Position numbers and translations under genes: made by a program. From a virus, in IMG/VR virus record IMGVR_UViG_3300037882_001639, positions 1 through 25,651 of that record: 25,651 nucleotides of DNA; one strand, written 5' to 3'. A model generated the notes under the pieces. The model made no database searches. It was not told where the DNA came from and saw only the letters and a list, made by a program, of their open reading frames with translations. Position 1 is the first letter of the stretch; each line of letters starts with the position of its first letter. Positions 19,114 to 20,835 of the stretch are shown here, in pieces.

Positions 19114-20835
19114 TCAATTTCCGGCAAGCCGCTCACAGATCCAGCGCATCACAGGAACCGCCATGCTGTTTCCAATCGCTCGGTAACGTGGTCCGTCTGG
19201 ATTCATCTTGTTCGATTTAATCTGCGATGTCGTTGCAAGTGCATATCGCAAAGGCCATGTCCTTTGTGCTTCCTCCCACAGTCCTGAACTGAACAAAAAC
19301 GCTTCGGTCTGTGCTCTTTCGTATGACAACTTCGACACAAGTCCTTGAGATTCTCTTTCGAGTTGTTCAAAGGATTCTCGTCGATATGGTGACGGTCTAT
19401 ATTCCGAGTTGAACCGCAACGCTCGCAAGAAGTTTTCGGGCCAGACTGCCTCGCCCGATAGCGACCCTCGTGAGGAAGCACATCTTGCTGCCACATCCCA
19501 CGATATCCATCCGCCATGCACGCCCGAGAGCAATACTTGCGGCGTGAGAAGTGAAGCAGCGACTCCAAGTCTCCATCCTTCTCTCGCAAACGAACTAGCT
19601 GACTTCCACAACTCATGCAGCACTTGTGCGGCGTGGGCTTTTGCTTCCGACCCATATTTCAACTCCAAATAATCGTCTGGGAATCCTTGTAATCTCGCAC
19701 ACTCAACGGGCGTAAGCCGGCGGACTTGCATTTGCGGCGTTAGCACTCGTTCGGGTTTCGTTGCGTCAACCGTTCCCGCAATGTCGCTAATATGTTCCGG
19801 ACGTTCATATCCGCGACCATCATCACCTCGGGCCCTGCTTCCGATCGCGATTGCCTGCGTACACCCATCGGTATCAATTGGTCCAGTTCGTTCCTGCCAT
19901 GAATCAGGATCTTGCCTGGCATTGAAAGCAATCACGTTCTCAGGATTTCCATTAACTGAGTGGTGGGCCCTCAAAGTCCAGCACGGAATTACTGGATGCA
20001 TTCCGCTTGAAACTCCACCATCTGTTGCGGGAAGCGTGCAAGCAATGAACGTCTCGCAGCTTGGATCAAGCCTACCGCTACCACCTTTTGAAAGGCAGGC
20101 ATGCGAAAGCATTGGAACAAATGGGACGCCTCCGGTTGTGCTTCCGTTTCCTCTTTTCAATGTCCCCATTTCTCCAACGCTTGTTCCGTGGCATTGATAC
20201 GCTACGAAGTTATCGGAGTCCTCTCGATGACTGCTGTTAGAGCGGCCTCTAAGTGCTCTGGCAACTTCTTGTTTCTTGCCTGGGCCCTGCGAAGGATTCC
20301 CGCACACGCCTTCGCGCTCAAACAATACTTCTGCGGCACGTCGCCAGTCTCCAAGACATCCGACAACGAAGACTCTACGGCGCCGCTGTGGTACTCCGGC
20401 GAACTGAGCATCCAGGATTCTCCAAGAAAACCCATACCCGAGTTCAGCCACCGCCCCGAGGAAGGAACCAAAATCCCGTCCTCCACTTGAACTGAGCACG
20501 CCCGGGACATTTTCCCAGACGAACCACTGAGGCTTAAATCGCTCAAGTATTCCGCAATAGACGAGGGCGAGGTTGCCCCTTGGGTCGGACAAGCCTTTTC
20601 GTAAACCAGCAACGGAGAATGACTGACATGGGGTTCCTCCCACAAGAACATCAATTGCGCCAAGATCCCAACTCCTAAAGTTGTTCATATCGCCTAAATT
20701 TGGGACACCAGGAAAGCGAGCAGCTAGAACTGCAGACGGAAATGGTTCGATCTCGCTAAACGCCACTGGCTCCATCAGCCCATCCCACGCCACCGACGCC
20801 GCCTCAATTCCAGAGCAAACACTTAAATATCTCAT
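19114..20835 (-). CDS. dcm: DNA (cytosine-5)-methyltransferase with an embedded out-of-frame HNH gene
   Basis: A 573-residue C5 methyltransferase. Motif I 'MRYLSVCSGIEAASVAW' binds AdoMet, motif IV is 'GGTPCQSFSVAG' with the catalytic cysteine (about residue 69), motif VI 'WENVPGVLSS', motif VIII 'QRRRRVFVVG'. A target-recognition region follows (about residues 160-365). Motif IX is 'RRLTPVECARLQGFPDDY' (about residues 368-385) and motif X 'GPRYRAIGNSMAVPVMRW' at the end. Motifs IX and X are normally 15-30 residues apart; here about 150 extra residues lie between them, and exactly these bases also encode the HNH protein at 19203-19655 in another frame. The methyltransferase frame remains open throughout. 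The enzyme likely protects phage DNA from host restriction. Its own GGGTC promoter lies at 20854. Confidence 0.85.
   Translation of the reverse strand: MRYLSVCSGIEAASVAWDGLMEPVAFSEIEPFPSAVLAARFPGVPNLGDMNNFRSWDLGAIDVLVGGTPCQSFSVAGLRKGLSDPRGNLALVYCGILERFKPQWFVWENVPGVLSSSGGRDFGSFLGAVAELGYGFSWRILDAQFAGVPQRRRRVFVVGCLGDWRRAAEVLFEREGVCGNPSQGPGKKQEVARALRGRSNSSHREDSDNFVAYQCHGTSVGEMGTLKRGNGSTTGGVPFVPMLSHACLSKGGSGRLDPSCETFIACTLPATDGGVSSGMHPVIPCWTLRAHHSVNGNPENVIAFNARQDPDSWQERTGPIDTDGCTQAIAIGSRARGDDGRGYERPEHISDIAGTVDATKPERVLTPQMQVRRLTPVECARLQGFPDDYLELKYGSEAKAHAAQVLHELWKSASSFAREGWRLGVAASLLTPQVLLSGVHGGWISWDVAARCASSRGSLSGEAVWPENFLRALRFNSEYRPSPYRRESFEQLERESQGLVSKLSYERAQTEAFLFSSGLWEEAQRTWPLRYALATTSQIKSNKMNPDGPRYRAIGNSMAVPVMRWICERLAGN
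19203..19655 (-). CDS. HNH endonuclease encoded in another frame inside dcm
   Basis: A 150-residue protein from ATG 19655 with GGAG 7 bases upstream, in the frame shifted by +1 from dcm. Residues 14-45 hold cysteine pairs ('CCMSCGSQLVRLREKDG', 'YCSRACMADG'). The HNH core is 'CERCGSTRNIDRHHIDENPL' followed by 'NNSKENLKDLCRSCHTKEH' (about residues 77-115), with the HH, N and H catalytic residues and the two zinc pairs. The end, 'CSVQDCGRKHKGHGLCDMHL', is another zinc knuckle of a kind common in such endonucleases. Its reading frame is therefore certainly functional or recently so. It starts within a few codons of motif IX of dcm and ends just before motif X, so it entered the gene as a homing element, without an intron or intein. 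Confidence 0.85.
   Translation of the reverse strand: MGRKQKPTPHKCCMSCGSQLVRLREKDGDLESLLHFSRRKYCSRACMADGYRGMWQQDVLPHEGRYRARQSGPKTSCERCGSTRNIDRHHIDENPLNNSKENLKDLCRSCHTKEHRPKRFCSVQDCGRKHKGHGLCDMHLQRHRRLNRTR

Follow-up and report, generated by a model that had tools for sequence, protein, structure and literature searches.

It was long believed that homing endonucleases avoid harm to the host gene only through self-splicing introns, inteins or intergenic sites. A fourth way of sparing it was reported, from few cases, with the description of the ShiLan domain, an out-of-frame HNH endonuclease in the gp65 methylase of mycobacteriophage ShiLan that is accompanied by neither intein nor intron (Arsenault et al. 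2025, PMC11855218). The same report includes Pacc40 gp60, a methylase gene that carries an out-of-frame HNH-like ORF at another site and has free-standing homologues beside related methylases; its methylase belongs to another family, and its authors regard the HNH assignment as less certain (PMC11855218). Likewise, neither intron nor intein accompanies the HNH genes that lie within phage genes in nrdA/mobE of Aeh1 and gene 60/mobA of T4, but these host genes are broken into pieces that are translated separately (PMC2988022).

In this study, we analyzed a viral metagenome contig of 25.7 kb (hereafter, the window) in which an HNH ORF lies within dcm, a C5-cytosine DNA methyltransferase gene. Unlike in the Aeh1 and T4 genes, the host frame runs through the insert, and dcm is not cut by stops into separate ORFs as in the Aeh1 nrdA type. 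The locus resembles ShiLan in that a phage DNA methylase gene encloses the whole HNH ORF, which is read in a different frame and leaves the host frame open, shows no intein or intron signature, and is patchily distributed. However, the ShiLan host is an N6/N4 methyltransferase (PF01555) and not a C5 enzyme, its host codons begin at position 2 of the HNH codons as against position 3 in dcm, and its HNH ORF has a GTG start and no recognisable ribosome-binding site, in contrast to the ATG and Shine-Dalgarno sequence of the window. Similarity between the two HNH proteins is local only (37% over 27 aa). Given the opposite phase, the other host class and the local HNH similarity, the window is of the same kind as ShiLan but not of the same lineage. 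A sequence-only reading had noted that this arrangement differs from the known self-splicing strategies of homing endonucleases; the kind is not new, as a phage methylase carrying an HNH out of frame was already published in 2025 (PMC11855218). What is new here with respect to that paper is the breadth of the family, the fixed phase, the evidence for selection in two frames, and another methylase class.

Organization of the dcm locus

Both ORFs were recovered with their Pfam domains (Table 1), in agreement with the sequence-only reading that a complete HNH gene lies out of frame inside dcm. The insert was placed between methyltransferase motifs IX and X, and we could locate both flanks: it follows motif IX (RRLTPVECARLQGFPDDY) and precedes motif X (GPRYRAIGNSMAVPVM). 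The HNH gene had also been credited with a Shine-Dalgarno sequence and all catalytic residues. Indeed, a GGAG lies 7 nt upstream of the ATG, the HNH motif with zinc-binding cysteines is present in the protein, and the zinc-binding and catalytic residues vary little or not at all across 29 homologues. The HNH stop is found 2 nt ahead of the codons for PDGPRY and coincides in part with a dcm-frame ATG (ATGA overlap).

Table 1. Coordinates of the features found in the window
Feature	Position	Strand	Description
dcm, C5-cytosine DNA methyltransferase ORF	19114..20835	-	573 aa; PF00145; open across the insert
HNH endonuclease ORF	19203..19655	-	150 aa; ATG start; PF01844; out of frame in dcm
Inserted segment (inferred limits)	19201..19668	-	dcm residues 390-545; from comparison with uninterrupted L002-L007, L019 and L020
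Shine-Dalgarno GGAG for the HNH ORF	19663..19666	-	inside dcm codons LEL
Methyltransferase motif IX	19672..19722	-	RRLTPVECARLQGFPDD; upstream flank of the insert
Methyltransferase motif X	19147..19173	-	GNSMAVPVM; downstream flank of the insert
Second overlapping ORF over dcm	20202-20663	-	153 aa; ...SLSDVLETGDVPQKYCLSAKACAGILRRAQARNKKLP...; around dcm motifs WENVPG..RRRVFVVG
Phage class-I release factor	about 21641-20960	-	PF00472, PF03462; PPT motif as in RF1

Close uninterrupted Dcm proteins lack the ~150 residues and read ...RLQGFPDNYTNIPWRGKPESPDGPRYKALGNS... at the insert site. In these relatives the spacing from motif IX to GNS is 18-25 residues, with one at 51; hence, the window dcm carries ~145 extra codons, in frame. 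The comparison fixes the insert ends to within some codons, since an 11-15 aa linker is replaced by the insert.

Splicing and split-gene explanations

Introns are frequent carriers of HNH genes, and TerL inteins on other contigs contain HNH ORFs out of frame. On these grounds, a self-splicing element, either a group I intron or an intein, might bear the HNH gene and be removed. However, the insert extends little beyond the HNH ORF and its Shine-Dalgarno sequence, and both frames are open. Moreover, an Rfam search gave no match up to E 1, group I intron included, and Pfam detected no intein domain in the window dcm, whereas the same search finds inteins in the TerL controls. With no splicing signature found, we set aside an intein or intron identity of the insert, and removal by self-splicing is scarcely credible. 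The proposal that the endonuclease invaded dcm without intron or intein is thus supported.

The HNH ORFs in phage large terminase inteins deserve a description of their own. They lie out of frame and leave the intein frame open along their length, either in one phase (L041, L043, L047, L052, L058-L061 and L063) or in the other (L054, L056, L068, L072, L074 and L076). Of the two tested by Pfam, L041 has a TerL intein domain above the curated cut-off and L059 just under it. These ORFs share with the window a zinc-HNH, an open host frame and, in nine, the same phase, but their in-frame product is an intein, which can be spliced out. We found no description of out-of-frame HNH ORFs within TerL inteins in the literature searched. 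In a further locus (L033:262-3063), dcm appears to have both an in-frame intein, located after GGTP of the catalytic motif and ending VHN ahead of CQDFS, and, between motifs IX and X, an HNH out of frame.

Alternatively, the methylase might be made in two pieces, the C-terminal one by reinitiation at the ATGA overlap formed by the HNH stop. T4-type phages do have genes split around homing endonucleases (PMC2988022), and the overlap is present in the window. Yet it is not conserved in most relatives, for which we set reinitiation aside, and a split dcm would have no need to keep its frame open. We therefore regard a split methylase as extremely unlikely. Roseobacter phage CRP-821, with three adjacent ORFs, was considered as an HNH-split dcm and rejected: the middle ORF is not an HNH and dcm is uninterrupted on translation.

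The insertion recurs with an open host frame

We identified 34 non-redundant HNH-family insertions in C5-methylases, with GC contents from 33 to 63% and including the isolate Staphylococcus phage CUB-EPI_14. The phase is identical in all of them, with host codons that begin at position 3 of the HNH codons. In relatives, the length of the insert keeps the host frame, a check for which the sequence-only reading had called. Over the HNH, the host frame is stop-free in 32 of the 34, with 5-22 stops expected in each. One exception (L022) has a single stop, where the host ORF itself ends. The other (L207b) has 2 stops close to where the host frame ends; this frame is here that of an overlapping ORF2 and not of dcm. 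In the AT-rich L021, which comes from a Staphylococcus phage isolate, and in L035, there are 0 host-frame stops vs 20-22 expected, and 11-17 stops in the third frame. A tblastn search with the dcm-frame peptide against phage records gave no match at E 1e-3, and a genome scan for the HNH gave two distant matches only.

The sequence-only reading had set dual coding against homologous Dcm proteins that carry this region in frame with conserved sequence. Such proteins do exist (L023-L033), and they leave dual coding standing because each also has an HNH in the other frame.

To what extent an open frame could arise by chance was assessed by holding the HNH protein fixed and redrawing its codons from local usage in 100,000 draws. 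Across the window HNH, 8.6 dcm-frame stops are expected and 0 are observed (P ~6e-5), while the third frame has 5 stops. The chance of about 0.1% suggested earlier was of the right order of magnitude, but generous. In sixteen other HNH ORFs, this frame contains 7-40 stops, in line with the simulation. On synonymous recoding, we reject a chance open frame in the window and in nearly every relative.

One locus, L209, provides a natural control. Its HNH is 54% identical to that of L021 and its methylase is broken, the upstream frame ending at the HNH and a stop lying within motif IX. Across the HNH its host frame contains 25 stops vs 22 expected, and the region uses all three stop codons. Hence, the second frame is not kept once the methylase is dead. 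In three gut-type methylases, insertions of 6-9 nt with a stop inside motif IX (L207 near 2998, L210 near 2700 and L209 near 2023) were seen near a site used by the HNH family; these are possibly repair scars.

As an HNH of the same family in a dead methylase, L209 also fits an explanation in which the HNH alone is used, dcm being disrupted and its open frame arising by chance or following from the codon usage of the HNH. For ShiLan, it was argued that phages can often do without their methylases (PMC11855218). Against this explanation, the chance of the open frame is small in nearly every relative and not only in the window, the sixteen unrelated HNH ORFs have no open frame, the L209 frame has 25 stops, and dcm-frame substitutions are constrained, as described below. 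We consider it highly improbable.

Selection in both frames

Constraint was found on the HNH and dcm frames when substitution rates were measured in nine inserts. The pSN/pSS ratio, which relates HNH-synonymous changes altering dcm to changes silent in both frames, was 0.58 [0.49-0.67] in the insert vs 1.14 [0.87-1.69] in a dcm-core control that partly overlaps another conserved ORF. A control taken before that overlap, in its own (rel 1) phase, gave 0.91. Similarly, pNN/pNS was 0.93 [0.73-1.17] in the insert vs 1.65 [1.38-2.03] in the control. Replacements in dcm caused by HNH-synonymous changes were also more conservative than expected, with a small effect size (BLOSUM +0.24 [0.02-0.45] vs -0.07 [-0.23-0.09] in the dcm-core control). 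Of note, the intervals are column bootstraps only, and insertion and substitution counts are not independent because the sequences are related. In the HNH frame, the dN/dS-like ratio was 0.25. These substitution patterns indicate that purifying selection is acting on both frames and, along with the open frames across the 34 insertions, they bear out the earlier suggestion of genuine dual coding.

The conservation of the dcm frame and the predicted helical nature of its insert could also be explained if the dcm frame alone were used now, the HNH being a decayed remnant turned into a methylase domain. However, the HNH ORF is intact, with a Shine-Dalgarno sequence, a start codon and zinc-binding and catalytic residues conserved in the aligned homologues, and its own dN/dS-like ratio is 0.25. 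We find this explanation very unlikely.

Predicted protein products

The AF2 model of the HNH protein has a pLDDT of 86. Foldseek returned no match for it at E 0.001 or better; the weak matches obtained include an HNH nickase and EcoKMcrA. The dcm model is poor overall (mean pLDDT 56), and its methylase core matches M.HhaI and M.HaeIII. Within the insert, residues 397-480 are predicted to be helical with pLDDT ~80. This prediction is suggestive only of a helical module, since the AF2 alignment had few insert-bearing sequences. The proposal that the enzyme had acquired a 150-residue loop holds as to an extra in-frame region, but the model predicts a helical module and not a disordered loop.

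Possible mobility of the insert

The insert is missing from close uninterrupted homologues and its distribution is patchy. The window dcm core is nearest to the uninterrupted L002, L003 and L005, and presence or absence of the insert requires six changes on the dcm-core tree. Insert-bearing cores do not form one clade (p-AU 0.03, delta lnL 104). With a p-AU no more than moderately low, the rejection of a single insert origin on the methylase tree is weak, and an appearance of mobility could also result from a few unseen losses. The insertions span several methylase subfamilies and occupy either the interval between motifs IX and X or the variable region ahead of motif IX. In L025, a 70%-identical HNH sits at the equivalent motif IX site of a clearly divergent C5-methylase, and L207 appears to carry two HNH insertions.

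Other coding features near dcm

A second overlapping ORF was observed over dcm (Table 1). Its peptide was found in 80 of 85 uninterrupted dcm loci, its frame is open in 73 of 74 (9.5 expected), and pSN/pSS in the overlap is 0.36 [0.30-0.44] vs 0.91 before the overlap. It has a weak match to phrog_16143. From these patterns, it looks like a widespread real overlapping gene. In L174:2068-3447 and L207:1256-2227, the HNH seems to extend the frame of this second ORF (ILRRA..RGK.LP) and not that of dcm, whose N-terminal frame ends near the HNH.

A nearby phage class-I release factor is split over two frames at CGG AGG TGT CTT TAG TTG. The site resembles the prfB +1 frameshift site but has UAG; in a survey of bacterial prfB, no TAG was found at the site, nor such control of RF1 (PMC12421855). 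Among 38 viral relatives, 28 are split at the identical position; in these, CTT precedes TGA, TAG or TAA, and most have a purine-rich SD-like stretch ahead of the split.

A proposed mobile gene with its own second open frame

Altogether, we favor, with a probability of about 0.82, that a mobile HNH gene with its own second open frame sits in dcm and that this DNA codes for both proteins. The gene, equipped with its own Shine-Dalgarno sequence, would have landed in a tolerant loop between motifs IX and X, and bringing its own second open frame would allow it to invade without splicing. Because the dcm frame passes into and out of the insert without a shift and meets no stop within it, ribosomes in this frame would make a single enlarged methylase. 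This enzyme would carry an extra, probably helical, module of ~150 residues and presumably retain its activity. The HNH protein would be made by ribosomes entering at the internal start; if it behaves like homing endonucleases, it may cut empty dcm alleles, into which the gene would be copied by repair. Selection could keep both frames because loss of the HNH would stop the spread of the element and loss of the dcm frame would cost the phage its methylase.

It is about an even bet that this HNH family goes further and constitutes a frame-neutral homing cassette, consisting of a nuclease frame with a Shine-Dalgarno sequence and a selected, foldable helical module that spares the host enzyme. 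If so, the second frame would belong to the element and not to each host, a view suggested by a phase that stays the same at several sites of divergent C5-methyltransferases as well as in terminase inteins. Long inserts in phage methylases are also at risk of being misread as domains. The fourth way of sparing a host gene is now represented by a broad family, which keeps to one phase, has ribosome-binding sites, occurs in divergent C5-methylases, and comes with a natural control and measurable selection in two frames. With it, the questions raised by the ShiLan paper, namely how the hidden HNH is translated and whether the in-frame product matters, become directly testable.
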